NCBI GenBank assembly: GCA_024276995.1
Contig: JAJRWB010000001.1
Span: 124,001 to 188,000 of the forward strand
DNA from: Candidatus Eiseniibacteriota bacterium
Lineage (GTDB): Bacteria > Orphanbacterota > Orphanbacteria > Orphanbacterales > Orphanbacteraceae
Direction: 5' to 3'
Length of the DNA stretch: 64,000 nt
Shown here one piece after another: positions 8,212-24,374 of this stretch (position 1 is its first letter; each line of letters begins with the position of its first letter). The notes beneath the pieces are model-generated. The model saw only the letters and a list, made by a program, of their open reading frames with translations, did not search any database and had not been told where the DNA came from. A program made the translations under genes and the position numbers.

Positions 8212-9282
8212 TCAGTCGGACAGGAGCGCGTGTCGGATGACGAGCCTCTCCCCCACGCCGGCGGTGCTGTAGATCGCCCCCGACGAATCGATAAGCACCG
8301 CCTCCACGCCGTCGAGACTCTCCACGAGGTCGAGCCCCTTGTCCCTGCCGAGCACCACGAGCGCGGTGGAGAGCGCGTCCGCCGTCAGCGCGTCGGGTGA
8401 GATCACCGTGGCGCTGCGAACGGTGCGCGCCGGAAAGCCGGTGCGCGGGTCGAGGATATGATGGTAGCGGACGCCGTCGATCATGAAGTAGCTTTCGTAA
8501 TCGCCGCTCGTCGAGACCGACACGTCGCTCGCCTCGAAGAAGGCGAAGTAGTCGCCCGGCGCGCCGCGGGGATCGCGGATCCCGACGCGCCACGGTCTCC
8601 CATCCCGGAGTCCCGCCGCGTAGATCTGCCCCCCCGCCGACAGAAGGAACCGCTCCGCCCCCATCCTTCTCAGCGCCGCCGCGGAAAGGTCGAGGGCGTA
8701 TCCCTTGGCGATGCCGCCGAGGCCGATCTTCATCCCCTCCCGGGGTAGGCGAACGGTGCCGGCGCCGGCGTCGATTTCCACAGCCCGGTAATCGATCCGG
8801 GAAAGACGCTCTTCGATCTCCCGGCGGTCCGGCGCGCGCGGTTCGGGGGCGCGGAAGTCCCACACCCCCCAAAGCGCCGCCCATGTGATGTCGAAAGCGC
8901 CGCCGGTGAGCTTTCCGATTTCGAGCGCCCGGCGGATCACCTCTCGCAGATCGGCGGGAACGGCGACCGGGTCGCCCCCGGCACTGCGGTTCACCCGGGA
9001 AAGGGGTGAACTCTCTTTCCATTCGCTCATCGACGCATCGACGGCGCGAAACAGGGCGAACACCGTCTCGGCCCGCGCCGGCGCCTCGACGTCGTCGGGG
9101 AGGAGCACCTCGATGGTGGTGCCCATGATCTCGCGTGAAGCGCCGACGAAGCGGTCGGTATTCGTTCCGGCCGTTTTGCCGCCCCCCTCCTCACCGCCGC
9201 CGCACCCGGCGATGAGGAACGGGAGGAGGAGAAGAGAAGCGGCGGCGGCGCGCGCTCTTCCCGGGGAGCGGCGCGTCGTCAC
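8212..9282 (-). CDS. apbE: FAD:protein FMN transferase (ApbE), lipoprotein
   Basis: ApbE attaches FMN covalently to Thr/Ser of target proteins, classically RnfD and RnfG, on the outer face of the membrane. The 356-residue protein starts at GTG 9282 (GTGA overlap with the small ORF upstream), has a lipoprotein signal (SLLLLPFLIAGC) and the family motifs REIMGTTIEV, GGAFDITWAALWGVW, GLGGIAKGYALD, LLSAGGQIYA, YHHILDPRTGFPA and the C-terminal DALTADALSTALVVLG. It is the last gene of the kor-rnf operon, matching its job of maturing RnfD and RnfG. Confidence 0.93.
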   Translation of the reverse strand: MTTRRSPGRARAAAASLLLLPFLIAGCGGGEEGGGKTAGTNTDRFVGASREIMGTTIEVLLPDDVEAPARAETVFALFRAVDASMSEWKESSPLSRVNRSAGGDPVAVPADLREVIRRALEIGKLTGGAFDITWAALWGVWDFRAPEPRAPDRREIEERLSRIDYRAVEIDAGAGTVRLPREGMKIGLGGIAKGYALDLSAAALRRMGAERFLLSAGGQIYAAGLRDGRPWRVGIRDPRGAPGDYFAFFEASDVSVSTSGDYESYFMIDGVRYHHILDPRTGFPARTVRSATVISPDALTADALSTALVVLGRDKGLDLVESLDGVEAVLIDSSGAIYSTAGVGERLVIRHALLSD

Positions 9283-9455
9283 GGTTTGGGCTCTTCGCGC
9301 TTTCGGCAGCCGTCGACGGAACAGCTGCCGCACTCCCTTTCGACGCCGGGGGCATCGGGATCGCGGCGGGAGACGAAGCGCTGCACGAGAAACCACGCGA
9401 CGCACAGGAGGGAAAGACCTCCCACGGCGGCAACGTGAATCAGGAAACGTTTCAT
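9279..9455 (-). CDS. Small Cys-rich single-pass membrane protein, NqrM-like
   Basis: A 58-residue ORF missed by length filters. It has a strong ribosome binding site (GGGGAGG), one N-terminal transmembrane helix (about residues 5-25), a short basic stretch and a C-terminal cluster CGSCSVDGC. It lies between rnfA and apbE, overlapping apbE by GTGA. Size, topology and Cys cluster resemble NqrM, a factor needed to mature the related Na+-pumping NADH:quinone reductase by supplying iron. An equivalent role in placing the iron or FeS centre shared by RnfA/RnfE is inference. Confidence 0.65.
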   Translation of the reverse strand: MKRFLIHVAAVGGLSLLCVAWFLVQRFVSRRDPDAPGVERECGSCSVDGCRKREEPKP

Positions 9456-9468
9456 CGTAGCCTCCCCG

Positions 9469-10047
9469 CTACGAACTACTGAATAGACCGGCGAACCCCA
9501 TGAATGCCATGGAGAGAATCCCGGCGATCATCAAGTTCATCGCCGTGCCGCGGATCATCGAGGGGATGTCGGACAGCTCGGCGTCCTCCCTCAGCCCCGC
9601 CATGAGGACCAGCGCGAGGGTGAGACCGCCGCCGCCGCCGAGGGCGAAGACGAGCCCTTCGACGAGGCCGTAGCCGCGGCTCGTCTGAAAGAGGGCGAGT
9701 CCGAGGATCGCGCAGTTCGTTGTGATCAGGGGAAGGAAGATGCCGAGGGCGCGGAAGAGCGCCGGATAGAGCTTCTTGATCACCATCTCGACGAACTGCA
9801 CGGTGCTCGCGATAACCACGATGAAGCTGATCAGCCTGAGGTACGGCGCATGAACGAGGACGAACGTGTTGAGTGCCCACGCGCACAGCGACGTGATCAC
9901 CATGACGAAGATGTTCGCCAGACCGAGTCGGAACGCGGTGACGAGCCGTCCCGATACGCCGAAGAAAGGGCACAGGCCGAGAAAGTAGGCGAGGGTGAAA
10001 TTGTTCACCAGGAGGGAACTGATAAAGATCCACGCGAGGTTATTCAT
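9469..10047 (-). CDS. rnfA: Rnf complex membrane subunit RnfA
   Basis: A 192-residue integral membrane subunit of the ferredoxin:NAD+ oxidoreductase (Rnf), homologous to NqrE. It has about six helices, the N-terminal VNNFTLAYFLGLCPFFGVS and the mirror-image NCAILGLALF, each with the conserved Cys that in Rnf/Nqr holds an intramembrane iron-sulfur centre with RnfE. The ATG at 10047 overlaps the rnfE stop (TGATG). Confidence 0.96.
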   Translation of the reverse strand: MNNLAWIFISSLLVNNFTLAYFLGLCPFFGVSGRLVTAFRLGLANIFVMVITSLCAWALNTFVLVHAPYLRLISFIVVIASTVQFVEMVIKKLYPALFRALGIFLPLITTNCAILGLALFQTSRGYGLVEGLVFALGGGGGLTLALVLMAGLREDAELSDIPSMIRGTAMNLMIAGILSMAFMGFAGLFSSS

Positions 10048-10691
10048 CACGCGACCCTCCCCGTCACGCTGTCGCGCCGTTTCGCCTTCATTTCCTTCCA
10101 CCAGCCGAAGAAGAGGAGGATCGCGCCGAGCATGAAGAAACCGCCCGGCGGAAGGATCATCACGACCCACGGTTCGAAATGCGGCCCGCAGAGGGAGAAG
10201 CCGAAGATCGATCCACTCCCGAGAATTTCACGGAGCGAGCCGAGGCACAGGAGGGCGATGGCGAAACCGAACGACATTCCAAGGGCGTCAAGAACGGAGA
10301 GGAGCACGCCGTTGCGCGACGCGAACGCTTCTTGCCTTCCGAGAATGAGGCAGTTCACCACGATGAGCGCGATGAACGCGCCGAGTTCCTTGTGCACCGA
10401 CGGGCTGAGCGCCTGGAGGGTGAAGTCGGCGAGCGTGACGAATGTGGCGATGATGATGATGTACGTCGAGATCCGGACCTGCTTCGGGATCACTTTCCTC
10501 AGGAGTGAAACGAGAAAACTCGAGCCGACGAGAACGAACATGGTGGCGGCGGCCATGGCGACCGCGTTGATCGCCGAATTGGTCACCGCGAGCATGGGGC
10601 ACATGCCGAGAACCTGGACGAAAACGGGGTTCTCCTTCCATAGTCCTTTGGCGAATTCCCTGTAGATGTCGCCGCCGTCTCGCTCGGCCAT
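10047..10691 (-). CDS. rnfE: Rnf complex membrane subunit RnfE
   Basis: A 214-residue membrane subunit homologous to NqrD. It shows the paired Cys-containing half-motifs QVLGMCPMLAVTNSA and VVNCLILGRQEAFA, in mirror arrangement to RnfA, and about six hydrophobic helices. The ATG at 10691 comes two bases after the rnfG stop. Confidence 0.96.
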   Translation of the reverse strand: MAERDGGDIYREFAKGLWKENPVFVQVLGMCPMLAVTNSAINAVAMAAATMFVLVGSSFLVSLLRKVIPKQVRISTYIIIIATFVTLADFTLQALSPSVHKELGAFIALIVVNCLILGRQEAFASRNGVLLSVLDALGMSFGFAIALLCLGSLREILGSGSIFGFSLCGPHFEPWVVMILPPGGFFMLGAILLFFGWWKEMKAKRRDSVTGRVA

Positions 10692-10693
10692 CT

Positions 10694-11338
10694 CTATTTC
10701 TCCCCGAGGTGGGAAAGCCAACGATCGTTCGTCACGTTCAGAATCTTCACGACCGCCTTCGATGAAATCGTCGCGCCGGTGATGGCGTCCACTTCGTTCC
10801 CCTTCGTCTTGTGGCTGTTCTTCACCACCACCACCTCCGGGTCGACGGAGAGGTCGTCGAAGTTGGCGACGAAGGCGGCGTCCTTGCGGATCTTATCGCC
10901 CAGTCCCGGCGTCTCCCTGCTTTCGAGCACCTGGAGCCCGACGATCTTCCTTTCCTTCGGATCGTAACCGTAGATCAGTTCGATCACGTCCTGGAAACCG
11001 TTCCCTTCGCCGGGAATGGCGTAGCCGAGAAGATTCCCGCCCTCGTCGTACGCGGCGTAGATGCGTTCCTCCACCGGCGTGTCGTCGGTTGCCTCCACGA
11101 GGGCGCCTCCATCGAGGGTGAAAGGTTTCATCGTCTGGGAACCGGGCACGACCTGGAGAACGGCCGCCTTCAGTGCCCGCGCCCGGTTCGCCAGAATCGT
11201 CGGCAACGTGAGTTCGTAAACGCCCACGATGGCGACGCCGGAGATGAGGCCGGCCAGCGCGAGGGTGGCGATCATCCGGGCGCCTCCCGGTTCGCGGGGC
11301 GTCTCGACGCCGTCGCCGATCGATACGGGGGTGCTCAT
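10694..11338 (-). CDS. rnfG: Rnf complex FMN-binding subunit RnfG
   Basis: A 214-residue subunit with one N-terminal transmembrane helix (about residues 22-42) and an extracytoplasmic FMN-binding domain. The flavinylation motif DAITGATISSKAV carries the acceptor Thr for covalent FMN, the ApbE target. RETPGLGDKI is another conserved family segment. The ATG at 11338 overlaps the rnfD stop (ATGA). Confidence 0.96.
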   Translation of the reverse strand: MSTPVSIGDGVETPREPGGARMIATLALAGLISGVAIVGVYELTLPTILANRARALKAAVLQVVPGSQTMKPFTLDGGALVEATDDTPVEERIYAAYDEGGNLLGYAIPGEGNGFQDVIELIYGYDPKERKIVGLQVLESRETPGLGDKIRKDAAFVANFDDLSVDPEVVVVKNSHKTKGNEVDAITGATISSKAVVKILNVTNDRWLSHLGEK

Positions 11339-12351
11339 CGGTGTTTCCCCCTTCCGAAGGGTCTCGGCTGGACGGCGCGCTCGATGAGGGGCGTGGCGCC
11401 GTTCATGAGGAGAATCGCGTACATCACCCCTTCGGGGAGCCCGCCGAAGACGCGGATCAGCACGACGAGAAAACCGATGCCGGCGCCGAAGATCCATGCC
11501 CCCCTCGGCGAAAGGGGCGACGTCACCGGGTCGGTCGCCATGAACACCGTGCCGAAGAGCAGTCCTCCCGAGAGGATCGTGAAAAGGGGGGTCGGGTAGC
11601 GGTCGGGCGCGACGAGGAAGAGGATGCCGGAGAAGATCGCCGCCGCAAGCAGCACGCCCGCCGGGATCCGCCAGTCGAACATTCGTCTCACCGTGAGGTA
11701 GATGCCGCTGAGGAGGATGAGCACACCGCTCGTTTCGCCGAGAGAACCGGCGGTGTTGCCGAGGAAGAGAGCGGCGGCGGGCACGGCGTTGTGGTCGAAT
11801 TTCATCATCGACAGGGGCGTGGCGGTGGTTACCGCGTCGACCCCTCCTTGCAGCAGCGGGAAGGCGAGGTTTGCGCCGCGCACGGCGAGGAAGTCGGAGG
11901 GGCCGCCATGGAGCGCCCACGTGGTGAGCACCGTGGGAAACGCCGCCTGGAGGAAGGCGCGCCCCACGAGGGCGGGGTTGAACAGGTTGTGACCGAGGCC
12001 GCCCCATACGAGTTTCCCCAGCCCGATGCCGATCACACCGCCGAGAAACGCCATCCAGAGGGGAATGCCCGGTGGAAGGGTCAGCGCGAGCAAAAGACCG
12101 GTGAGCAGCGCGCTCCCGTCGGCGAGGGCGGCCCCTCCCTTACCTTCAGGTGTGAAACGCCATTCGGTGAGCATGGCGCCCGCCGTGGCGGCGACGATGA
12201 CGAGAATCGCGCTCACGCCGAAGAACCAGATCGACGCACCGATCACCGGAACGAGGGCGTAGATTACGTCCCTCATCAGCGCCGGGGTGGTGAGGTTCCG
12301 TCTGAGAAAGGGCGCCGTTCTGAGGAGGAGCGCGGGATCGCTGACTTTCAC
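11335..12351 (-). CDS. rnfD: Rnf complex FMN-binding membrane subunit RnfD
   Basis: A 338-residue multi-helix subunit homologous to NqrB. Visible family segments are LADGSALLTGLLLALTLPP, GGLGHNLFNPALVGRAFL, DAVTTATPLSMM (covalent FMN acceptor site, ApbE-type D-x-x-T-x-A-T pattern), TDPVTSPLSPRG and PEGVMYAILLMN. The GTG start at 12351 overlaps the rnfC stop (GTGA). Confidence 0.96.
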   Translation of the reverse strand: MKVSDPALLLRTAPFLRRNLTTPALMRDVIYALVPVIGASIWFFGVSAILVIVAATAGAMLTEWRFTPEGKGGAALADGSALLTGLLLALTLPPGIPLWMAFLGGVIGIGLGKLVWGGLGHNLFNPALVGRAFLQAAFPTVLTTWALHGGPSDFLAVRGANLAFPLLQGGVDAVTTATPLSMMKFDHNAVPAAALFLGNTAGSLGETSGVLILLSGIYLTVRRMFDWRIPAGVLLAAAIFSGILFLVAPDRYPTPLFTILSGGLLFGTVFMATDPVTSPLSPRGAWIFGAGIGFLVVLIRVFGGLPEGVMYAILLMNGATPLIERAVQPRPFGRGKHR

Positions 12352-13694
12352 TGCCTCACTTCTTTCCTTTTTCGCTGCGCCATGGCGGAGCGGGCGACCT
12401 TGATCAGTTGCGATATGGGAATCCCCGACGGGCACGCCCAGCTGCACGAACCACAGAATGTGCAGTCCGAGGCGTAGAACTCGTCCATCGACTCGATCCG
12501 CCCGGCCCGTGCGAGCTTCGCGAGCATGCACGGATTGAGGAAATTCGGACATGCGTCGAGGCAGCGGCCGCACTTGACGCATGTGTACGTGTCGCCGTCG
12601 AACACGTCGGCGTCGGTGAAGGCGAGCAGACCGGAAGTCCCCTTCACGACCGGCACGTCGAGGCTCGACAGCGGACTCCCCATCATCGGACCGCCCATGA
12701 CCACCTGCCTCGTTTCGCTCTTCAGCCCGCCGCAGTATTCGAGCACCGCGCGGACCGGCGTTCCGAGGGGAACCTGGAGATTCGCCGGCCTGGAAACGGC
12801 GGGTCCCGAGACGGTGAGCACCCTGTCGATGAGCGGACGGCCGTGGTCGAACCAATCCGCCAAGGCGGCGATGGTGGCGACGTTGTTCACCACCATGCCG
12901 ACATCGAGGGGGAGCTTGCCGGCGGGCACTTCGGTCTTGAAAACGGCGTCGATGAGCATCTTCTCCGACCCTTGCGGATATTTCACCTTGAGGGCGGCCA
13001 CCTCGACGGGCACCGGTGCGCCGGCCGCCGCAGCCTGGAGCACTTCGATGGCGTCTTCCTTGTTCTGCTCCACGCCGATAACCGTCTTCTCCGCCCCCAG
13101 TTTCGTGGCGAGGATTTCGATCCCCCGGACCACCCGGTCGGAACGCTCCACCATCACCCTGTGGTCGCACGTGAGATACGGTTCGCATTCGCATCCGTTC
13201 ACCACGAGAAAGCGAACCGGTTTTCCCTCCTGCGGAACGTATTTGACGTGCGAAGGGAATGCGGCGCCTCCCATGCCGACGAGACCGGCCATCTGGGTCT
13301 GGTCGACGAACTCCTTCGACGACAGGGCGCGCCAGTCGACGGGCGCGCGGGGCTCGAAGCGTTGCGTGGCGTACGGATCCGCCTCGAGAAGGATGCACGG
13401 AACGAGGTCCCCCATGGCGTTCCGGCGATTCGCCAGCGCCGTGACGTGTCCCGTGACCGGGCTGTGGAGTGCCGTCGATACGAACCCTCCCGGCTTCGCG
13501 ATCAGCTGTCCCCGCTGGACGCGGTCCTTCGGTTTCACCACCGGAACGGAGGGCGCCCCGATATGCTGGCCCAAGGGGAGGATGTACGATTCGACGAAAG
13601 GAACCCGCTCGATGGGGAGCGACTCGGTTCCTTCCTTGTGTTCGTCCGGATGGACGCCGTGGCGGAACGTGCTGATCCAGTTCTCCGGGGCCAC
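12348..13694 (-). CDS. rnfC: Rnf complex NADH-binding subunit RnfC
   Basis: A 448-residue peripheral subunit that binds NAD(H) and FMN and carries two 4Fe-4S clusters. It has the N-terminal barrel-sandwich (PKDRVQRGQLIAKPGGF, HSPVTGHV), the flavin/NAD domain (GLVGMGGAAFPSH, VVNGCECEPYL), an SLBB segment (EYCGGLKSETRQVVMGGPMMG) and two ferredoxin motifs (CVKCGRCLDACP and CTFCGSCSWACP). The GTG at 13694 starts two bases after the PFOR-like protein's stop, so the degenerate PFOR-like gene and rnfC are translated together. Confidence 0.96.
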   Translation of the reverse strand: MAPENWISTFRHGVHPDEHKEGTESLPIERVPFVESYILPLGQHIGAPSVPVVKPKDRVQRGQLIAKPGGFVSTALHSPVTGHVTALANRRNAMGDLVPCILLEADPYATQRFEPRAPVDWRALSSKEFVDQTQMAGLVGMGGAAFPSHVKYVPQEGKPVRFLVVNGCECEPYLTCDHRVMVERSDRVVRGIEILATKLGAEKTVIGVEQNKEDAIEVLQAAAAGAPVPVEVAALKVKYPQGSEKMLIDAVFKTEVPAGKLPLDVGMVVNNVATIAALADWFDHGRPLIDRVLTVSGPAVSRPANLQVPLGTPVRAVLEYCGGLKSETRQVVMGGPMMGSPLSSLDVPVVKGTSGLLAFTDADVFDGDTYTCVKCGRCLDACPNFLNPCMLAKLARAGRIESMDEFYASDCTFCGSCSWACPSGIPISQLIKVARSAMAQRKRKEVRQ

Positions 13695-13696
13695 CG

Positions 13697-15217
13697 CTAC
13701 ATCCCTTTCCCGTCGCCGGCGGGCCCGGTCACGCCGGCGAAGGCGCGCAGGCGGCTTTGAATCCGGGCGGTCAGCTCGCGCTTCGCCTGTTCGCGCGCCG
13801 CCGCCACCTCCTCCTCGTGCCGGCGACCGAGGGCGGCGATCTCCTCGGAGTGCGCCGCCGCGGCGGCGTCGGACGTCAGCCCGGCAAGATCCCTCAGGAG
13901 ATTCCAGATTCGCAGATGCTCCCGTGACGCCTCGGCGATCGGCTCACTCACTTCGAGGCGCGTCTCTTTCCCGTCTTCGCCCGCGAGGATGAACGGAGTC
14001 CTTCCCTGTCGGTCCGAGTCGGTCGCTTCGACATACTCCTCGAGGGGGATCGGCTTCGGCGCGTCCTTCGGCAAAGGGCGGAAATGGTGGGCGAAGCGTT
14101 TCTCGGTGACCGCCCAGTGGGCGTACGTCACCGGCCGGCCCGACCGGTCGAGCGCCCACGCATCGCCGGTGGACGGGTTTCCCTCGAGCGCCAGCTCCCG
14201 TCCCTGTTCGCCGGCGGCGCACGGGTCGCGGCGGAAGAGGGGGAAGGCGCGCGACCAGACGGCGAGACGGGCCTGCTCCACGGCACCGTCCGGCGCGAAG
14301 CCGTCCTCGAGTGGTGAGGGGGCGTGGATTCGGATGAACGCCGGCCCGGGAAACGCCAGCGCGTGGGCGACGCCGTGGGCGAGATGGTCGGCGTGGGCGA
14401 TCGACGATTGAAGGGTGAAGCATCCGCGGTGGGCGAGCGCCACGAGGCCGGCGTCCGGCGACACTTCCGATCCCCTTCCCCTTCCGCCCGGGTCGAGGCG
14501 TGAGAGGAGAACGATTTTGATCGGAAGATCGGAGTGGAGGAGGCGCGACAGGTGCGCGCTTCCATGGCGCTCGAGCGTCTCGTCGTCGAAGAGGAGGAGG
14601 AGCGGAGGACAGAGCGCTTTCTCTTCCCCGGTCCAGTCGTCCCACGGCGGCGCACCGTCGTCCCCGGCGGTCTTCCCACCGTCGGCGAGAAGTTGCCGGC
14701 AGCGTCTTTCGAGGGCGACCGCCTCGGCGACGGCACGGATCTCCCCGAGGACGAGGCCCTCGGCGAGCGGTGCGGCGTGGCCGGTCGTGTCGACCACGGC
14801 GGGGACGGCGAACGGGTTGTAAGGGTAGACGGCGGCCCAGCGAGCGACTGAGGCGGCGGCGATGACGAGACCGTGCGTGGCACGCTCCCCCCCTCCTTCC
14901 CCCTTCCCGAGGAGCCGCAAGCGGAGCGAGGCGAGATCACGGGCGCCCTCCACGAGAGCCCCCAGACGCCCGGCGTCCACCTTCCCGCCCCCCACGGCGT
15001 CTTCCATGCCCGCGGCGAGATCGGAAAGATCGATCTCCTTCTTTCCCGCGGCACGGATCGCCTCGCCGAGGCGATCGAGATCGGCCAGCGGCAGGGTACC
15101 GGAGAGAGTCTCCCGGATCGCAGCGGAACACTCCTTTTCCAACACGGCGAGGCGGTCGGCATGGCCGCGCAGAATCGGCCGCATGTGACGCTCGGTGGCG
15201 GCGAGGAGGATGCGCAC
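13697..15217 (-). CDS. Degenerate PFOR-like TPP-domain protein (same frame as the upstream PFOR-like gene)
   Basis: 506 residues from a GTG at 15217, but the coding frame continues unbroken upstream to a TAA at 15347-15349, and that leader (including LSGTDSSQAGSGERA) resembles the start of PFOR domain VI (SGACAGCGE). This segment is therefore probably the C-terminal third of the preceding gene. It keeps the PFOR fold pattern: LLLLFDDETLERHG at the GDG thiamine site (about residues 206-219), DLPIKIVLLSR, LVALAHRGCF and FPGPAFIRIHAPSPLEDG, ending in a charged helix (EEIAALGRRHEEEVAAAREQ). The GDG...N metal/TPP motif and the proximal-cluster cysteines are gone, so catalysis as in PFOR is unlikely. 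It lies directly upstream of rnfC. Confidence 0.7.
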   Translation of the reverse strand: MRILLAATERHMRPILRGHADRLAVLEKECSAAIRETLSGTLPLADLDRLGEAIRAAGKKEIDLSDLAAGMEDAVGGGKVDAGRLGALVEGARDLASLRLRLLGKGEGGGERATHGLVIAAASVARWAAVYPYNPFAVPAVVDTTGHAAPLAEGLVLGEIRAVAEAVALERRCRQLLADGGKTAGDDGAPPWDDWTGEEKALCPPLLLLFDDETLERHGSAHLSRLLHSDLPIKIVLLSRLDPGGRGRGSEVSPDAGLVALAHRGCFTLQSSIAHADHLAHGVAHALAFPGPAFIRIHAPSPLEDGFAPDGAVEQARLAVWSRAFPLFRRDPCAAGEQGRELALEGNPSTGDAWALDRSGRPVTYAHWAVTEKRFAHHFRPLPKDAPKPIPLEEYVEATDSDRQGRTPFILAGEDGKETRLEVSEPIAEASREHLRIWNLLRDLAGLTSDAAAAAHSEEIAALGRRHEEEVAAAREQAKRELTARIQSRLRAFAGVTGPAGDGKGM

Positions 15218-15346
15218 GGCGGCCCGTTCGCCCGAACCGGCCTGCGAGGAGTCGGTGCCCGATAGTGCGAGTGCCGCGCCGGTGTCGAGGAAGAGGGCAG
15301 CCCCCTCGCCGATCCCCCCTTCTGAGCCTAGGATGCGGATCGTCTC

Positions 15347-18031
15347 TTACGGTGTGCCGCGCACCGCCTCGAACGCCTTCCAGGCGGCACTTTCCCCTTC
15401 GCCGCCCGCCGGGCGGTCGGCCCGGGAGAGGGCGGTCGGCTCGCACGATGCGATGCAGACGCCGCACCCTTTGCACCGATCGGGATCGACGGCGAGAAAA
15501 AGGTGGGCGCCGCCGAGGACGTCGGCGGAGATGACCGGGAGAGCACCGACGGTCTCTTCGAGAACGGCGATCGCTTCGGCCTGTTTCGGATCGGGAGGGC
15601 CTCCCCCCTTCGCTCCGATCGAATCGAAGGCGCATCGGAGCGCGTCGCCCACGGTGTCCGCGCCGCCGTCACCGCCGGCGGTCTTCGAGAACTCTTTCGC
15701 CAGTCGGCTGAGCACGCGTTTCAGTGCGTCGGCCGATCGGCCTCTCTCCTTCGCCGCGTTCATCGCTCTGCCGATCACCTCCGCCCCGGAAAGGACGGTG
15801 CCGCCGATGGCGCCGTCGGGACAGACGGTCCAACAGTGGCCGCAGGCGGTGCACGCCGACGGCGTGAACGCCGGGACGGCGGCGGACGCTCCACCCACCT
15901 TGCGGAAGAACGCCGAACGCCCCGGAACGAGTCCCGATGCGAGGAAAGGATCGGCGGTGATCGATTCATCGTCGCCCCGCGCGTACAGGACGCCGACCTG
16001 GTCCCAGAAGCGAGGGAGACTCTCCGAGGGCGCTCCTTCCCGCCCGATCCGGTTCCGAACGGCGGCGGGCGCCTCCTCCTCGATCGGCGCGCGCACCGCC
16101 GGGGCGCTCCGCCGCTCGCGAAGATCGACCGCCTGCATGGCGACGAGCCCATCCCGGAAGGGAGCCGCATCATCATCGGTTTCCTCCCGTCGCAGGGAGA
16201 CGAGCTTCTTCCGGTCGAGAGGATACGCCGGATCGATGCCGCCCAGAAGAGCGGCGGATGCGCCGAGAAGCCTCTCGAGCGCGTCTCGGCGCTCTTCGGC
16301 GCCGTCCGCCGATGGGAGATAGTGGAGGTGGAGCCCCCTGTCGTTCTCGAGGGTGCGCGCGATTCTTCCGATTCTTTCGATCTGCTCGCCGGGGTTGTCG
16401 CCGCCGGCCAGAACGGCGCCGCCGGGGCGAACCCGGAAGAGAGACCGGCGGATCTCCCCGTCCCGGAGATCTCCCGGTCCGGGCAGGATCAGCGCGTCGG
16501 CGGCGAAGGCGTCGCCCGGATCTTCATGGGCGGCGCCTCCCCAGACGGCGCTGTCCACAAGGAAGCCTCCCCACATTCCCCAGCCGGTGCCGAGGCGGCT
16601 TCGCATCGTCTTCCCGATGCACCGCTGAACGAGAAGGAAGAGCGACCGGGAGAACTCGGCCTGTTCCTCCCCCGGCGAACGACCGATCGCCACCGAAAGG
16701 GCGGATCGGGATCCGGCGGCCGGCTCGCCGGGGGGACGGTAAAACCCGAGGGCCGCCGCGTCGGGATAGTCCCGGCGGACCTTGTCGATTACCGCTTGGC
16801 GCTTCGGATAGGGCGACCTTTCGTTCGGAATGAAATCGATGCCGAGATAGACCGTCTTCTCCACGCCGGGCGCTTCCTCGGAGCAGAAGAGCGCCAATTC
16901 GTCGGCGCGCAGCGGCGTGCCGCCGAGGCCGGCGAAGAGGGTGGTCACCGGTTCACCGGTGAGGGCGGCTCGAACGCGCCGGGCGAGCCGTCCGTCGCCG
17001 CCGGCGCCGGGTTGGGTTCTCTCGAGGATGACGATACGTTTCCGTCCCTCGGCGGCGCGGCGGATCGCTTCGGCCGGGAAGGGGGAGATCGAACGGACGG
17101 CGAGAACGGCGGGGACGTCCTTCCCCGCGCCGCGCAGCACGGAGGCGGCCGCGAGGGCGGTCTCCACGGCGCTCCCCTGTGCGATGAGAAGGAGATTCTC
17201 CTCCCCCTCGCCGTGGAGCGACGATGTCTCCAGCTTTCTCCCGGTGGCGCGGCCGACCGCGCCGAACGCCTCGTCGAGAATCATCGGAAGATGACCGGCG
17301 AAGAAGGGCGCCGCCGCCGCCGTCGCGTATCCCCAGCTGAGGCGGTCGTGAAGAGCGCCGGTGAGCGCCGGGTGATCGAAATCGAAGAGCCGGGGAACAC
17401 GCCGGCGGTGGGTGCCGAAAAGCATCGCCTGCGCCGGGGTGGGCGACTCGATGCGATCCTCCGGGCGGCCGGCGAGATCGACGACGAGTCCGGCGGTCGG
17501 CAGAGCGAGGTCCTGGAGCGCTCCCGCGGTTTCCTCCTCGTCCATGGCGACCACGCACGGCACAAGGGCGTGCTCGGTGAAGCGTCGCGCCGCCACGGTG
17601 AGGTCGGCCGCCTCCTGGACGTTCGTCGCGAAGAGAAGAACCGCGCCGCTGTCGGCGAGGGCGTGGTAGCCGTCGTGGCCCGTGCCGAGAGCGCTGCCGT
17701 GGGACGTGGACGCCCTGCATGTGAGGTGGGCGACCAGGGCGAGATGGCGCGCGGCGGCGCGCCGAAGCTGGTTCGCCTCGCGCGACGGTTCGTCATCGCC
17801 GAGATAGGCGGCGGCGCGGATGCCGTTCAGCGCGAGACCGGCCGCCGCGGCGAACGGCGTCGCGCTTCCGGTCGAGGTGATGCCGCCCGACGAACCGAGA
17901 AGCCGCTCCACGGCGATCACGGCGGTGCGCCCGTCGAGAACGCTCCTTTCCCCCGGCGTTTCGGTCGCGTTTCGCTCCGCCTTCTTTTCCGATAGGCGGC
18001 CCAGTTTCCGGATCAGATCAGAGACGCTCAA
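15347..18031 (-). CDS. PFOR-like protein with two 4Fe-4S motifs, ending at an in-frame TAA
   Basis: 894 residues up to the TAA, 1444 if the stop is read through. Domains follow pyruvate:ferredoxin oxidoreductase order: a domain I relic (SVLDGRTAVIAVERLLGSS, then LALVAHLTCRASTSHGSAL and FATNVQEAADLTVAARR), a transketolase-C-like domain (LLLIAQGSAVETALAA, ILERTQPGAGGDG), a gamma-like region (GIDFIPNERSPYPKRQAV), and two ferredoxin motifs CTACGHCWTVCP (from residue 727) and CKGCGVCIASCEP (from 853). The TPP-pyrimidine residues of domain I are not conserved. The TTG start at 18031 has GGGAGG five bases upstream and overlaps rnfB by 14 bases. Position between rnfB and rnfC suggests an Rnf-bound electron-transfer scaffold; this is inference. 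Confidence 0.75.
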   Translation of the reverse strand: MSVSDLIRKLGRLSEKKAERNATETPGERSVLDGRTAVIAVERLLGSSGGITSTGSATPFAAAAGLALNGIRAAAYLGDDEPSREANQLRRAAARHLALVAHLTCRASTSHGSALGTGHDGYHALADSGAVLLFATNVQEAADLTVAARRFTEHALVPCVVAMDEEETAGALQDLALPTAGLVVDLAGRPEDRIESPTPAQAMLFGTHRRRVPRLFDFDHPALTGALHDRLSWGYATAAAAPFFAGHLPMILDEAFGAVGRATGRKLETSSLHGEGEENLLLIAQGSAVETALAAASVLRGAGKDVPAVLAVRSISPFPAEAIRRAAEGRKRIVILERTQPGAGGDGRLARRVRAALTGEPVTTLFAGLGGTPLRADELALFCSEEAPGVEKTVYLGIDFIPNERSPYPKRQAVIDKVRRDYPDAAALGFYRPPGEPAAGSRSALSVAIGRSPGEEQAEFSRSLFLLVQRCIGKTMRSRLGTGWGMWGGFLVDSAVWGGAAHEDPGDAFAADALILPGPGDLRDGEIRRSLFRVRPGGAVLAGGDNPGEQIERIGRIARTLENDRGLHLHYLPSADGAEERRDALERLLGASAALLGGIDPAYPLDRKKLVSLRREETDDDAAPFRDGLVAMQAVDLRERRSAPAVRAPIEEEAPAAVRNRIGREGAPSESLPRFWDQVGVLYARGDDESITADPFLASGLVPGRSAFFRKVGGASAAVPAFTPSACTACGHCWTVCPDGAIGGTVLSGAEVIGRAMNAAKERGRSADALKRVLSRLAKEFSKTAGGDGGADTVGDALRCAFDSIGAKGGGPPDPKQAEAIAVLEETVGALPVISADVLGGAHLFLAVDPDRCKGCGVCIASCEPTALSRADRPAGGEGESAAWKAFEAVRGTP

Positions 18032-18875
18032 CGTGGCCTCCCCTGTTCGCCGGTTCGCTATCCTCGAATTGATCTTCCACGACCCACTGGATGGCGCCGG
18101 TGGGACAGCGGAAGGTCGCTTCGGGGCACTCCGGCCCTTCATAGTGGACGTAATCGATTACAGGCAGATTGTTCTTCATCTCGATCAGGCCGGGTCTCGC
18201 GTAGCGGGCGCATCGTTCGCAGGCGTCGCACGCCACCGTGCAAAGGGCGCGGGCCTCCTCGCCGCCGAGGGGAATGGAGCATTGCACGAGGAGCGGTTGG
18301 TCCATCGGGAGGAGTTCGAACAGGTCCTTCGGACACGCCTCGACGCAGTCACCGCACGCGGTGCACTTCTGCGTGGTCACCGTGGGCAGGCCGTTCGTAT
18401 TCATATGAAGAGCGTCGAAGGTGCAAACCCGAACGCAGTCGGCCAGGCCGAGACACCCCCAGGAGCACCCCTTTCCGCCGCCCGAGGTCACCGCGGCGGC
18501 GCGGCAGCTCTCGAAGCCGGAATAGGCGGCCACCTGCTTCGCCTGGGCGAGGCCGCCTGCGCAATGGAGCCGCGCGACCCGCTTCACCTGTTCACCGGCG
18601 TCGACACCGAGAAAGCCGGCGATCTCGTCGATCTTCTCCGGGTTCGACACGGTGCATCCGGACGGCAGATTCCCGCCGTCGAGAAGCGTTTCGGCGAAGG
18701 CGCTGCAACCCGGCTGGCCGCACGCCCCGCAGTTGTTGCCGGGAAGCATGTCGATGATCACCTCGAGCCGCGGGTCCTCCGGCACGCGGAGAAAGCGGTA
18801 GGCGAGGGCGAGCACCGTGCCGAAAAGGAGCCCGAGGCCCGCCATGATACCCGCGGATGAAAGGATGTTTTCCAC
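18018..18875 (-). CDS. rnfB: Rnf complex ferredoxin-type subunit RnfB
   Basis: A 285-residue subunit that receives electrons from ferredoxin. It has an N-terminal membrane helix (about residues 5-27), the characteristic Fe-S domain CGACGQPGC (Cys49, 52, 57 and 74), a CSWGCLGLADC segment, and a ferredoxin module with CTACGDCVEACP, followed by CDACERC and CPEATFRCPTGAI. It has more Cys motifs than the shortest RnfB proteins, as in multi-cluster RnfB of anaerobes. The GTG start at 18875 follows GGGGAGG. Unusually, it is separated from rnfC by the PFOR-like gene and lies downstream of the ferredoxin-headed 851-residue protein. Confidence 0.95.
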   Translation of the reverse strand: MENILSSAGIMAGLGLLFGTVLALAYRFLRVPEDPRLEVIIDMLPGNNCGACGQPGCSAFAETLLDGGNLPSGCTVSNPEKIDEIAGFLGVDAGEQVKRVARLHCAGGLAQAKQVAAYSGFESCRAAAVTSGGGKGCSWGCLGLADCVRVCTFDALHMNTNGLPTVTTQKCTACGDCVEACPKDLFELLPMDQPLLVQCSIPLGGEEARALCTVACDACERCARYARPGLIEMKNNLPVIDYVHYEGPECPEATFRCPTGAIQWVVEDQFEDSEPANRGGHVERL

Positions 18876-18899: not shown

Positions 18900-21455
18900 C
18901 TATTTGAAAGCGGCTGCGCGCTTGCGCAACTCGTCGAGATTCGGCTCATCCGGGTTGAGCGGTGTTCCCGGATGGATGATCCCGACGGGGCAATTCTCCG
19001 CCGCGCGAACCAATTCCTCGTACGTGCCCCCCTTCGGATCGCCGATTTCGCACTGATCGTTTTCGTCGTAAACAAAGAGCGTGTCGTTGATGTCGGTGCA
19101 TTCGTTGCAGGACGTGCACAAGGGAGTGTCGACCCATGGGTCCTCCGCCTCCTCTTCGTCCACGCCCTCCGCGGTCGCGGCGACCTCGCCGGTTTCTTCC
19201 GCTTCCTCCGTCTTCGCCGGAGCGGTCTCTTCCTCCACCGTTTCCGCCGCCTCGGGGGGGAAAGGCTCTTCGCCGCCGACATCCGCCGAGGCCGCCGGCG
19301 TCTCGCTCTTTTCGCCTTCCTCGTGCGCGACCGCCGTTACGGGCGGCGGAGCGACCCCGCCGTCGCCGAGGAGCGCCGCCGTCAGGCTCCGGACCATGCG
19401 GTCGACGATATCGTCCCGGATCGTTTCGACTTCCTCGGCGTGGGCGGCCCGCACCGCTTCGAGCTCGATCTTCGCCTCGGCGAGCGTCTTCTCCCTCGCC
19501 TCCTCCGCCGCCCGGCGGATGTACTCGCTCTGCACACCGGCGAGTTCCTGGAGGGTGTTCCAGAAGGAGAGTCTGTCGGCGGCGAGAAGGGCGAGCTTGC
19601 GGGTCACGGCGAGGCGGAACTGTTCGCCGTGCCCGTCGACGGCCCAGATGAACGGGATCCGCTCCGACATCACCTCGGGGTCGAGATCGATATACGAACC
19701 GACGTCGATGAGGTGCTCGTCGCCGATCGATTCGGGGATCACGCGAAAAGAGGACGCGAAGCGCTCCTCGAGAACGGCGAAGTCGGCGAAGGTGAACGGC
19801 AGTTCCACCTCCTTCGTCCCGTCCTTCCCGCCCGGCACCTCGAGGGAGTGGACGGGCCAGTCGCTTTCGGGCTGCGGGTTGCCGGTGAAGTCGAAGCGGC
19901 TCGCCCACGAGGGCCCCCCTTCCGGATTGTACCGGAAGAAGGGATGGGCCCGCCCCTCCAGCTCGATGCCGCATCTCAGCCACGTGTTCAGCCGCGGGGC
20001 GTGGCGAAGGTCGTCGAGGCCGGGAGTGTAGAGGTGGAGCGCGGGCCGCGTCGTGGAGAGGCTCGATGAAAACGACCGCGCCAGGTGATCAGGACGGGCG
20101 GCCGATGAATGATCGACCCACGCTTTCCTCAGGCTGATGCCGATGTACGCCAGCTCGAGGCGGGCACGGGAATACTTTCCGGGGTCCGTCCCTTCGCCCG
20201 GATTCCCGCCGGGGCGGATCGGCACGAGAATGTGAACGGGCGACTCTCCCCGCAGGAGGCGCGACAGCGACTGAAGGCCTTCCCCGGCGATCCGGTCGGC
20301 CGAATCGAAAGCGGCCACCAGGGGGAGGGTCAACCTCTCATCGCGGGTGAAAGCATCGGGGCCGAACGTTTCGAACCACGGGTTGTGATGAGGCGGGTAG
20401 TACTTCCCCGCCACTTCGAGCCGGCCGATCCTCACCGCGCGGTAGAGGGCCGCCCTCTCGGAGGCGAGGCGCTCCGCCAGCTCGAAGGCTTCCGTACACG
20501 GATCGTCGCAACGCCTTACGGCGCAGATCGGCTCCTCGTCGAATCCGGCCGCGTCGAAATCGTCGCCGTGGAGGATGTGAACCAGCGCTTCGTCGTCACG
20601 GTCGAGGAACGCGCGGAGTCGCGAGGCGACCTCGGTGAGTCGCTCGCGCCGCTCGGTGTCCATGTGTCCGCTTCCCCTCTGTTCGCCGATGACATTCGAA
20701 AGAAGCTCGCTGTCGATCAGATCGTCGACGGCATCTCCCACCGATTCGCGGATCGCCTCGGGCTCGCGCGCGCCGGGATCCTTGCTCTTTTCCACGTCGA
20801 GCAGCGAACGGACCTGCTCGAGAAGGCGACCGACGCTCTCGCGGAAGGGGGCAATCTCCCGTGTCCGCACCCCTTTCGCGGCGGCGAGGAAGAGGTGCGC
20901 CGGCGACGCGGCGCCGAAGCCGAGGAACGTTCCTCCATCGGGAATAGCGTCCTTCATCCGGGAGGTCCCGGCAAGGAACGTATCCTTCTCCTCGTCGCCG
21001 AGGCGCAGCTTCGCCGACAGCTCCACGCGGCAGCGTTCGAACAGCTCCGCCGCCAGCGCCGGACGGCTCTCCGACGCGACACGCCCGCCGATCTCCTTCT
21101 CGAGGTCGGGAAGAAGACGCTTCACCAGGGGAGGGCCGTCCCCCTCGACAGAGTCGAAAAGGGCGGCGAGGAAATCTCCCACCGGCGAGCAGATCGCCCC
21201 ATCTTCTTCGCGGGGGACGGGGTAGAGAAAGAGCGGGTAGTCGTGACGCACCTCCTCGGAGATACGCAACGGCACGAGGAGGGCGGGCACGAAATCGCCC
21301 GCGGGAAGACCCCCGTCCGTCACGGCGCCGCTTCCGGCGAGGTGGAATCGCCGCAGTTTACGAAGTTCCTCGATAGCCCCTCGGGGGGCTGCGCTCTTCT
21401 TCTCCTCCCCTTCGGGGGAAGAGGAAGGATCGTTCGACAGATTCGCGGTGGCCAT
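18900..21455 (-). CDS. Degenerate PFOR TPP-domain protein with acidic tether and C-terminal ferredoxin head
   Basis: 851 residues, not a family I recognise as described. The middle (about 380-690) is homologous to the PFOR-like protein's C-terminal part: LPLVAAFDSADRIAGEG sits where GDG should be, then PVHILVPIRPGG, LELAYIGISLRK, HPFFRYNPEGG, and ERIPFIWAVDGHGEQFRL, ending in a charged helix. Residues about 700-779 form a Glu/Pro/Ala-rich linker. Residues 780-830 form a single-cluster ferredoxin (CTSCNEC, then ENCPVGIIHPG). The N-terminal 370 residues resemble an extra domain with no clear match. Loss of the TPP motif argues against catalysis; the tethered ferredoxin suggests electron shuttling between KorAB and RnfB (inference). 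Confidence 0.7.
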   Translation of the reverse strand: MATANLSNDPSSSPEGEEKKSAAPRGAIEELRKLRRFHLAGSGAVTDGGLPAGDFVPALLVPLRISEEVRHDYPLFLYPVPREEDGAICSPVGDFLAALFDSVEGDGPPLVKRLLPDLEKEIGGRVASESRPALAAELFERCRVELSAKLRLGDEEKDTFLAGTSRMKDAIPDGGTFLGFGAASPAHLFLAAAKGVRTREIAPFRESVGRLLEQVRSLLDVEKSKDPGAREPEAIRESVGDAVDDLIDSELLSNVIGEQRGSGHMDTERRERLTEVASRLRAFLDRDDEALVHILHGDDFDAAGFDEEPICAVRRCDDPCTEAFELAERLASERAALYRAVRIGRLEVAGKYYPPHHNPWFETFGPDAFTRDERLTLPLVAAFDSADRIAGEGLQSLSRLLRGESPVHILVPIRPGGNPGEGTDPGKYSRARLELAYIGISLRKAWVDHSSAARPDHLARSFSSSLSTTRPALHLYTPGLDDLRHAPRLNTWLRCGIELEGRAHPFFRYNPEGGPSWASRFDFTGNPQPESDWPVHSLEVPGGKDGTKEVELPFTFADFAVLEERFASSFRVIPESIGDEHLIDVGSYIDLDPEVMSERIPFIWAVDGHGEQFRLAVTRKLALLAADRLSFWNTLQELAGVQSEYIRRAAEEAREKTLAEAKIELEAVRAAHAEEVETIRDDIVDRMVRSLTAALLGDGGVAPPPVTAVAHEEGEKSETPAASADVGGEEPFPPEAAETVEEETAPAKTEEAEETGEVAATAEGVDEEEAEDPWVDTPLCTSCNECTDINDTLFVYDENDQCEIGDPKGGTYEELVRAAENCPVGIIHPGTPLNPDEPNLDELRKRAAAFK

Positions 21456-21504: not shown

Positions 21505-22458
21505 TCAGATCGTGAACCGATCGAGTTCCCTGTTCAGGAACTCCAATTTCTCCCCGACGCCCATGCCGATTCCCCTGCCGGTGAACTCCTCGTAGCCGGG
21601 ACGGTCCGGGTCGCAGTACAGGAGTCCGAGCGGCAGTTCCTCCACCCTGTCGGCGAGGATTCTCGCCATGTTCGAATCGAGCGGATCGTGGACGAGCTTT
21701 TTCGGATAGAGCCGGGCGACGGCCGGATCGATCGGTATGCCGTTTTCGTGCTCGAGGAGGAGGATTCTCTCCGGATCGGACTGCAGATCGTCGAAGACGC
21801 CCGGCGTGAACGTGGGGCACCGTTGCAGGATATGAACGAAGCTGAGCCCCTTATGTTCGTGGGCCTTCTTCAGCGTCGCGTAGAGGTGGGCGATATTCCA
21901 GTCCACCGTCTGGGCGACGAACGACACGTTCGTGAAACCGAGAGTGGCGCTCACCGGCTTCAGCGGGGGGAGGACGGCGCCGAGGGGATGGGTGTTCGTC
22001 GCAAACCCCTGGGGGGTCGTGGGGGATGTCTGTTTCTTTGTCAGGCCATATATTTCATTATTGAAGAGCATCACGGTGAGATTCATGTTGTAGCGCACCG
22101 CGTGGATCCAGTGGGCCGCGCCGATGGAACAGCAGTCGCCGTCGCCGGTGGCCACCCACACGTGAAGGTCGGGCCTGCGCGATCGGACGCCGCACGCCAC
22201 GGGGAGCGCCCTTCCGTGGAGACCGTGGAAGCCGTACGTCTTCATGTAGTGCGGAAAGCGGCTCGAGCAACCGATGCCGGAGACGCACACCACCTTTTCC
22301 GGCGGAAGCTGTTCGTCCCGGCAGATCCGCTTCACCGCCGTCAGGACGGCGAGATCGCCGCACCCGGGACACCAGCGCGCCTCGCCCCCCTCATAATCTT
22401 CAAGGGTGAAATAGCGCGGCGGCGGCTCGCTCGACCAGTCCGATTCCACGCCGATCAT
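21505..22458 (-). CDS. korB: 2-oxoacid:ferredoxin oxidoreductase beta subunit (KorB-like)
   Basis: A 317-residue TPP-binding subunit, probably of 2-oxoglutarate:ferredoxin oxidoreductase, which oxidises the oxoacid with CoA and reduces ferredoxin. It has the Fe-S ligands WCPGCGDLAVL and GIGCSSRFPHYM and an intact TPP motif (WVATGDGDCCSIGAAHWIHA, then NMNLTVMLFNNEIYGLTKKQ, SPTTPQG). The start overlaps korA by ATGA. The next gene downstream has the same fold but lacks this motif. Confidence 0.93.
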   Translation of the reverse strand: MIGVESDWSSEPPPRYFTLEDYEGGEARWCPGCGDLAVLTAVKRICRDEQLPPEKVVCVSGIGCSSRFPHYMKTYGFHGLHGRALPVACGVRSRRPDLHVWVATGDGDCCSIGAAHWIHAVRYNMNLTVMLFNNEIYGLTKKQTSPTTPQGFATNTHPLGAVLPPLKPVSATLGFTNVSFVAQTVDWNIAHLYATLKKAHEHKGLSFVHILQRCPTFTPGVFDDLQSDPERILLLEHENGIPIDPAVARLYPKKLVHDPLDSNMARILADRVEELPLGLLYCDPDRPGYEEFTGRGIGMGVGEKLEFLNRELDRFTI

Positions 22459-24374
22459 CGTTCGGCTCCTTTCAGCGCGCCGATCTGGCGCACGATTTCC
22501 CCGTAGACCAACCCGGGAGAGAGCGGTTGGCCGTGCACGTTCGACCAGCAGTCGACGTCGTATCGCGTCCGGATGCGGATCAGCTTGGCGAGCTGGGAGA
22601 ACCGGCGCGTGTTCTCGTCGATGTAAGGCGCGTTGTGGGGATCGCTGTAGTTGATCTCCACGACGAGCACCTTGGTGAACCGGGCGAAGATGTCGTCGAG
22701 GCCCGGTTCGAGGGGCGAGAGGAAACGGAGGTGGATCGACGCAACGCGCAACCCCTCGCTTCTCGCCCGGACGACCGCCTCATCGATCGCCCCGAGGGTC
22801 GATCCCCATCCGACGATGAGAAGATCCCCTTCCGGATCACCGCTGACTTCCGGCGGTTTCAACGTCCTGCGCAGCGCGGCGAGCTTGCGGCTCCTCATTT
22901 CACAGCCTGTCTGGTTCGATTCCGGATCGTACGCCACCTTTCCCCCGCGTGTGTGGGCGAGGCCGGTGAGAACGTATTCCCCTCCCCGCTGTCCCGGAAT
23001 CGGTCTCGGAGAGATCCCGCTCTCTTCGTCCCAGTCATACGGGGGCACCTCCGGATCCCAGGGGGATTGGTCGATCGGGGGCGCGAGCCACTCCTCCTTC
23101 ACCTCGGGGCGGGGGAAAGGCTGCATGCCGGTGGCGAGGTTCGCGTCGGTGAGCAGGACCACGGGCGTGCGGAAAGTCTCGGCGAGTTTCCGCGCGGTGA
23201 TGACGAAGTGGAAGCACTCCTCGATCGTTGCCGGGGCGAAGACGATCTTCGGATCGTCGCCGGGGGAACCGAAGATGGCGGGCATTAGCTCTCCCTGCTC
23301 GACCTTCGTCGGCAACCCGGTGCTCGGACCGCCGCGCTGCACGAGGATGATCACCAACGGGATCTCCGCCATCACGGCGAGGCCGATGAACTCGGTCTTG
23401 AGCGCCAGTCCCGGACCCGACGTGACGGTGCACGCCGTCTTCCCGGCGTACGACGCGCCGATGGCGAAACCGATCGCCGAGATTTCGTCCTCCGCCTGGT
23501 GGACGCAGCCGCCCACCCCCGGGAAGACGCCGGCGAGGTAGTGGGAGATCGATGTGGCGGGGGTGATCGGGTACATGGCGACCATCTCCATGCCGGACGC
23601 CATCACGCCGAGCCCCGCCGCCTGGTTGCCGTTCATCACAACTTGCTTCCCCTCCCGCGGCGCGGAGAGCACCTCGAAGGATAGGTCGATATTCTCCTTC
23701 GCGTAGTCGTAGCCGGCGCGGATCAGGCGCTGGTTCAGCTCCACCACCTTCGGGCCCTTCCGGGCGAAAACGCGTGAAATCTCGTTCAATGCCAGGTCGA
23801 TATCTCTCGTATAGATCGCCGAGAGCATGCCGAGAACGAACATGTTCTTGCCGAGCCTGGGGGTGGGGGTGAGCTTGAGACACTCCTCCTCCATGGGTAC
23901 ACCGATCACGTTGTACCCGCGCCGGTCGAAATCCTCGAGAGCCTCGGCGTATTCCCGGCGGACGACTTCCCTTCGGTCGGTGGCCCACTTGTTCTCGAGG
24001 AGGATGACGAGGCCTTCGTCGTACACGTCCTGGGAGATCCGCCCGTAGAGAACCTGTTCATTGAAAGCGACCACCAGGTCGGCGCTGTCTCCCATGTTGG
24101 TGACGCGGTCCGATCCGAAGCGGACGCGGATGCCGCTCGCACCGGCGCGCGACCGAGCCGGCGGCTTGATCTCGGCGGGGATGATCTCCACCGTCCAGAT
24201 TCCGTTTCCCATCTGGGCGCAGATCGCCGCGAACGACTGGCCCGCTTTCTGGGCGCCTTCCCCCGAATCGCTAACAATCTCGACGATCTGTTCCGCAGTG
24301 CGCACCGGCCCCGAAGGGGTGCGTTGAGAAGGCCGCCTCCCGGAGGCGGCCGGCGTGGACGAGGCTTCGGTCAT
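22455..24374 (-). CDS. korA: 2-oxoacid:ferredoxin oxidoreductase gamma-alpha fusion subunit (KorA-like)
   Basis: 639 residues. The N-terminal 190 form the gamma domain (QIVEIVSDSGEGAQKAGQ, FNEQVLYGRI, NMFVLGMLSAI), followed by the alpha subunit (VMNGNQAAGLGVMASGMEM, MYPITPATSISHYLAG, QAEDEISAIGFAIGASYAG, TSGPGLALKTEFIGLAVMAE, QRGGPSTGLPTKVEQGEL) and a transketolase-C-like end (LLIVGWGSTLGAIDEAV). This gamma-alpha fusion is typical of KorAB. Substrate choice between 2-oxoglutarate and other oxoacids is not certain. It is the first gene of the kor-rnf operon, behind a promoter at 24455-24482. Confidence 0.93.
   Translation of the reverse strand: MTEASSTPAASGRRPSQRTPSGPVRTAEQIVEIVSDSGEGAQKAGQSFAAICAQMGNGIWTVEIIPAEIKPPARSRAGASGIRVRFGSDRVTNMGDSADLVVAFNEQVLYGRISQDVYDEGLVILLENKWATDRREVVRREYAEALEDFDRRGYNVIGVPMEEECLKLTPTPRLGKNMFVLGMLSAIYTRDIDLALNEISRVFARKGPKVVELNQRLIRAGYDYAKENIDLSFEVLSAPREGKQVVMNGNQAAGLGVMASGMEMVAMYPITPATSISHYLAGVFPGVGGCVHQAEDEISAIGFAIGASYAGKTACTVTSGPGLALKTEFIGLAVMAEIPLVIILVQRGGPSTGLPTKVEQGELMPAIFGSPGDDPKIVFAPATIEECFHFVITARKLAETFRTPVVLLTDANLATGMQPFPRPEVKEEWLAPPIDQSPWDPEVPPYDWDEESGISPRPIPGQRGGEYVLTGLAHTRGGKVAYDPESNQTGCEMRSRKLAALRRTLKPPEVSGDPEGDLLIVGWGSTLGAIDEAVVRARSEGLRVASIHLRFLSPLEPGLDDIFARFTKVLVVEINYSDPHNAPYIDENTRRFSQLAKLIRIRTRYDVDCWSNVHGQPLSPGLVYGEIVRQIGALKGAER

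Follow-up and report, generated by a model that had tools for sequence, protein, structure and literature searches.

The window analysed here, a stretch of 64,000 nucleotides, holds a gene cluster in which an 851-residue protein is encoded between a 2-oxoacid oxidoreductase (KorAB) and an Rnf ion pump, raising the question of what this third protein does at the junction of both systems. The usual view of Rnf, Nfn and complex I lacking the NADH module is that they draw on a diffusible pool of ferredoxin. For this locus, we consider it rather probable that the 851-residue protein, as a tethered electron shuttle, couples KorAB to Rnf, and that it evolved from a single-chain PFOR bearing a ferredoxin head.

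The 851-residue protein and its neighbours

All the genes of the cluster lie on the minus strand and, read along it, follow in the order korA (22455..24374), of the fused gamma-alpha type (TIGR03710, E 9.3e-155); korB (21505..22458), with intact TPP motif and cluster cysteines (TIGR02177, E 1.3e-69, a subfamily assignment below the curated cut-off); the gene for the 851-residue protein (18900..21455); rnfB (18018..18875), identified by profile matches; a PFOR-like gene (13697..18142); rnfC (12348..13694; TIGR01945, E 1.1e-149); rnfD (11335..12351, start codon estimated; NQR2/RnfD/RnfE domain, E 1.9e-101); rnfG (10694..11338, start codon estimated; FMN_bind and TIGR01947); a pair of genes for Rnf-Nqr membrane subunits, either of which may be rnfE or rnfA (10047..10721, PF02508 at E 5.9e-63; 9469..10170, PF02508 at E 1.3e-51); and apbE, for a flavin transferase (8212..9405; PF02424, E 4.7e-86). 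The limits given to the 851-residue ORF in the initial annotation are exact, and it does sit between korB, directly upstream, and rnfB, directly downstream.

KorB matches the beta subunits of 2-oxoacid:ferredoxin oxidoreductases, and the best PDB match of KorA is the OGOR of Magnetococcus marinus (6n2n), which is its closest solved relative and is among the closest for KorB. The substrate is probably 2-oxoglutarate, with the NCBIfam assignment reaching only the subfamily. Because KorB keeps its TPP and cluster motifs and KorA is nearest to the Magnetococcus OGOR, KorAB is, as judged from sequence, the only 2-oxoacid oxidoreductase of the cluster with motifs that look intact. The M. marinus OGOR probably uses free ferredoxins; in the window, by contrast, korB is followed by the gene for a tethered one.

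The 851-residue protein comprises a degenerate body, an acidic linker predicted to be disordered and a C-terminal ferredoxin head. In an AlphaFold2 model built on an alignment of 25 relatives (mean pLDDT 81.9), the body (residues 23-696; 19368..21389, minus strand as for all the segments that follow), whose C-terminal part is homologous to PFOR domain VI, is confident up to around residue 696 and ends in a 52-residue helix (644-695; 19371..19526) leading into the linker (697-769; 19149..19367), which is followed by the head (770-851; 18903..19148). This three-part layout is common to 25 homologues and is, therefore, not a product of chance. We rejected a spurious ORF, since protein-level conservation across phyla falls on the minus strand. 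Searches with the complete protein yielded no family match in NCBIfam and, in Pfam, ferredoxin models only, with no POR_N, PFOR_II, POR or Fer4 dicluster; likewise, the head was the sole convincing match of phmmer among PDB sequences, the others being mostly designed proteins with no single significant stretch.

The structure nearest to the body in Foldseek comparisons is the PFOR 6cin (E 9.4e-6, 12% identity), and PFOR-type beta subunits also match. By BLAST, the body matches PFOR-like proteins of relatives, and the protein matches the PFOR-like partner encoded downstream of rnfB at E 3e-22; in the tree, the body groups with intact PFOR relatives. The degeneracy proposed in the initial annotation is evident, because the TPP motif GDG...N-T-G-G-Q is replaced by FDSADRIAG...NPGEG, being degenerate in the partner too, and the proximal-cluster cysteines are lost. 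We thus rejected an active enzyme, and the protein is, by its sequence signatures, a member of the PFOR superfamily by descent and not as a catalyst. Compared with PFOR (structures from Desulfovibrio africanus, 1b0p, and M. thermoacetica, 6cin), from the domain VI of which the body derives, proteins of the 851 type lack POR_N, PFOR_II, the diclusters, the proximal cysteines and the TPP motif, and carry a linker and a ferredoxin head.

The initial annotation had described a Glu/Pro/Ala-rich tether, for which it proposed a prediction of disorder over residues ~700-779, and had made its conservation, together with that of the cluster ligands, decisive for the proposal; neither check went against it. 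The 73 residues of the linker have pLDDT values of 30-39, below 50 throughout, and include 20 Glu, 14 Ala and 8 Pro (pI 4.05); they would span ~26 nm when fully extended and ~6 nm in a random-coil estimate. Nearly all the homologues keep a linker of the same kind, Pro/Ala/Glu-rich and mostly acidic, but not its sequence, and a few, above all in single-chain forms, are Ala/Pro-rich and near neutral.

The head is better conserved. Fer4_13 matches residues 775-828 (E 2.9e-6; 28.3 bits against a curated cut-off of 24.5), and the ligands C780 (19116-19118), C783 (19107-19109), C786 (19098-19100) and C822 (18990-18992), all encoded on the minus strand, are invariant in 25/25 aligned sequences from several phyla. 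They form the CxxCxxC...C pattern of a single-cluster ferredoxin, as first annotated, and would bind a single [4Fe-4S] cluster. Pairwise identity among the same 25 sequences averages 0.55 in the head, against 0.31 in the body and 0.24 in the linker; since no other part of the protein is as well conserved as the head, a chance low-complexity tail was rejected. Most of the head has pLDDT values over 90, and it aligns to D. africanus ferredoxin I both by sequence (phmmer) and by fold (1fxr: rmsd 0.9 A, TM 0.83 of the target, 33% identity, Foldseek). Ferredoxin I is a known partner of the PFOR from the same organism. The head shares with it (1fxr/1dax; Fer4_13) the fold and the single [4Fe-4S] motif, although it is a C-terminal domain behind a disordered linker of ~70 residues and carries a conserved C-terminal extension. 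In one genome (G199, L078:12561), the intact headed gene is followed, after ~1.6 kb of unrelated sequence, by a second copy of around the last 26 residues of the head.

Headed genes in other loci

A scan of GTDB contigs retrieved relatives from Thioploca, Parabeggiatoa, Chromatiales, Phycisphaerales, Rhodospirillales and one other bacterium. In a sample of 386 genomes of relatives, 28 contained a match at E 1e-20; 19/28 were counted as bearing the head, the others being headless PFOR-type matches or contig fragments. Of the 19 headed genomes, 16 gave an RnfC_N match with an E value no higher than 6e-22, and in nearly all the fetched loci of these it falls within the same cluster. The order korA-korB-851-rnfB-[PFOR-like]-rnfC-rnfD-rnfG is kept in Chromatiales, Phycisphaerales, the window's own phylum and others, and many loci show either korAB-head-rnfB or rnfB-PFOR/head-rnfC. 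The architecture and the context first annotated therefore recur in many kor-rnf loci; however, that reading had overlooked that a second PFOR-like gene follows rnfB, as well as the putatively ancestral headed single-chain PFORs and the loci with Nfn-like or complex I genes described below. The head is not always linked to rnf, as shown by Parabeggiatoa, where one contig carries the headed gene and another rnfB/PFOR-like (L019, L085).

Although conserved inside rnf operons, the headed gene is not confined to genomes with Rnf, since three of the 19 (G015, G229 and G294) lack a strong RnfC_N match. In G015, with no RnfC match found in the genome, korAB and the headed gene adjoin genes resembling both Nfn subunits (L027:3601-11281); genes resembling multihaem cytochromes come after them. 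In G294, with a weak RnfC_N match only, the stretches L075:6214-11388 and L090:200-11022 hold korA, korB and a headed PFOR with intact motifs directly upstream of a complex I operon. Pfam matches and gene position together assign A, C, D, H, I, K, L, M and N of this operon, whereas neither B nor J was identified, and there is no NADH module in the fetched stretch. G229 contains korAB and the head, with a weak RnfC match and no evident partner. The retention of korAB and the headed protein across exchanges of Rnf for Nfn-like or complex I genes supports a role in electron delivery, and our best reading in broader terms is that a tethered shuttle couples KorAB (or PFOR) to Rnf or to an alternative acceptor. 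Instead of carrying electrons, the head might act as an Fe-S domain with a structural or redox-sensing function, by which a KorAB-Rnf complex is gated or assembled, and a regulatory or assembly role is conceivable for a protein whose body is a dead enzyme. We regard this as very unlikely, given that the head is better conserved than the rest of the protein and is similar to the soluble ferredoxin partner of PFOR, and that its retention across those exchanges fits a carrier better than an assembly factor specific for Rnf.

A tethered carrier had also been suggested to replace a free ferredoxin, with none expected beside kor. At the loci this holds: none of those fetched contained an ORF of 40-160 residues that had either two cluster motifs or a single-cluster motif. 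The one exception in this search was a contig-truncated head in L083. The head is also the only Fer4_13 match of the window's genome, but at other sites the same genome encodes candidate free dicluster ferredoxins, namely a frame of 109 aa on C24 and one of 104 aa next to a vorA-like gene, so that replacement would be local at most. These candidates, together with the other PFOR/KorA/VorA enzymes that the genome carries, imply that Rnf may also use free carriers.

Candidate electron route and its direction

The simplest route consistent with these data would lead from the KorB cluster to the head, from there to the RnfB clusters, and through Rnf to NAD+. The dead PFOR-derived body would serve as a docking scaffold, while the long helix and the acidic linker of ~73 residues would let the head visit first the cluster of KorB and then those of RnfB, whose electrons would pass through Rnf to NAD+ with export of ions; the path may also run in reverse.

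The PFOR-like partner bears on how many steps this route would have. In the window, it is a single frame of 1,481 codons read as 931 + 506 aa, because of one in-frame TAA (15347-15349, minus strand) located between the dicluster and the TPP-like domains, where the relatives examined have no stop; it may be a real split, a case of readthrough or an assembly error. The window's partner keeps the dicluster cysteines and has lost the TPP motif and the proximal-cluster cysteines, which are also lost in the partners of L020, L021, L024 and L085/L086. The headless partners of two-gene loci keep the diclusters in most cases, and in most of these loci the gene adjoins rnfB. The partner could hence be an obligatory station between KorAB and RnfB, with the head exchanging electrons with its dicluster, much like ferredoxin in ordinary PFOR, and not receiving them from KorB directly: both CxxCxxCxxxC motifs are kept in the window and in most other partners despite the loss of the TPP motif, the gene lies next to rnfB, and head and dicluster belong to one chain in the single-chain relatives. 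Nevertheless, we consider such a multi-step wire unlikely. The partners in L021 (Phycisphaerales) and L074 have lost both dicluster motifs and the proximal cysteines, yet these loci retain korAB, the head and Rnf, so that between KorB and RnfB no Fe-S relay other than the head is evident; likewise, G015 has korAB and the headed gene with no PFOR-like partner in the fetched locus. L021 and L074 thus favour the transfer from KorAB to RnfB put forward in the initial annotation, but we infer both this transfer and the swinging of the head that was to accomplish it.

As an extension, KorAB, the headed protein, the PFOR-like scaffold and Rnf might form one membrane supercomplex, acting as an ion-pumping 2-oxoacid:NAD+ oxidoreductase without free ferredoxin, and the cassette might be a general adaptor that also serves Nfn and complex I without an NADH module; we put this forward tentatively, as possible and still short of probable.

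A reverse use of the same tethered shuttle differs from the main model solely in direction: Rnf would spend the ion gradient so that electrons from NADH reduce the head, and KorAB would carboxylate succinyl-CoA in a reductive TCA cycle or in assimilation. Relatives of the protein occur in lineages of sulfur oxidisers (Thioploca, Parabeggiatoa, Chromatiales), where a reductive TCA cycle is plausible; the related Thiomargarita has been reported to have such a cycle with korAB and two rnf copies (PMC4853749); the closest solved KorA comes from the Magnetococcus OGOR; and Rnf is reversible according to a 2025 review (PMC12174285). Nevertheless, the window's genome has a gene of the OGDH-E1 type, as well as other oxidoreductases, and in a study of Endoriftia the genes for a dimeric korAB and a 'PFOR-like' protein, possible counterparts of those in the window's cluster, behave opposite to rTCA genes under sulfide limitation (PMC11636981). 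We consider the reverse direction rather unlikely. In a search for ATP-citrate lyase in the same genome, the controls gave no signal.

The relevant passages on Endoriftia state that the expression of the dimeric OGOR korAB(3) and of the 'PFOR-like' genes falls together under sulfide limitation, list their functions as unknown and report Rnf as also present; they contain no tethered ferredoxin (PMC11636981). In the RNF review (PMC12174285), RnfB receives its electrons from cytoplasmic ferredoxins and itself contains a ferredoxin-like domain on a tether. This domain, as in NqrF, is likewise a mobile cluster-bearing domain on a tether at the route of electron input; in contrast, the tether of the 851-residue protein would act upstream of RnfB and is part of a PFOR-derived protein, and the window's RnfB is a separate and intact gene. 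The word 'oxoglutarate' is absent from this review, and the open-access literature that we searched held no description of kor-rnf clusters, of rnf-PFOR fusions or of tethered ferredoxins in kor-rnf loci. A covalently attached ferredoxin that would couple PFOR or OGOR to Rnf is conserved and, in the literature searched, apparently undescribed. If the cassette does tie ferredoxin to an oxidoreductase, Rnf, Nfn or complex I would be wired to one substrate in many lineages, changing the predicted yield and direction of energy conversion, and such wiring would be one way to feed low-potential electrons to KorAB in oxygen-exposed or autotrophic lineages.

Probable descent from a single-chain PFOR

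Motif tables and the tree separate three classes: headed single-chain PFORs, headless partners and the 851 type. The single-chain relatives resemble PFOR itself in keeping YPITPS, the TPP motif, both Fer4 motifs of the diclusters and the proximal-cluster cysteines; their genes are found between rnfB and rnfC in L072, L079, L080 and L030+L028, and with korAB ahead of complex I in L075. The 851 type, which has lost all the PFOR motifs and kept the head, forms one group in the midpoint-rooted tree (support 92/87). Headed forms of ~1,470 aa in L025:4990-9402 and L070:11144-15541 carry N-terminal remnants of PFOR_II and POR, supporting the descent of the 851 type from a full PFOR, and are apparent intermediates by domain content. 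Furthermore, G213 holds both a two-gene cluster (L071) and an rnf cluster with a headed single-chain PFOR (L072).

In this reading, the line starts with a PFOR in a single chain that already bore the tethered ferredoxin head and belonged to an rnf operon. Its gene would have been duplicated, the head surviving in one copy and the diclusters in the other; both copies would have lost catalysis, which KorAB took over. Evolutionary distances in the two paralogue trees are correlated (r 0.85, 0/5000 permutations), which would fit partner proteins, although a shared species history may explain this too. Such a history would represent the decay of a catalytic enzyme into a scaffold for electron delivery, with intermediates that can still be read in living genomes. 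In G110, genes for an EcoRV-type restriction endonuclease and a D12-class adenine methyltransferase are located between rnfB and the PFOR-like gene (L073:11012-12813).
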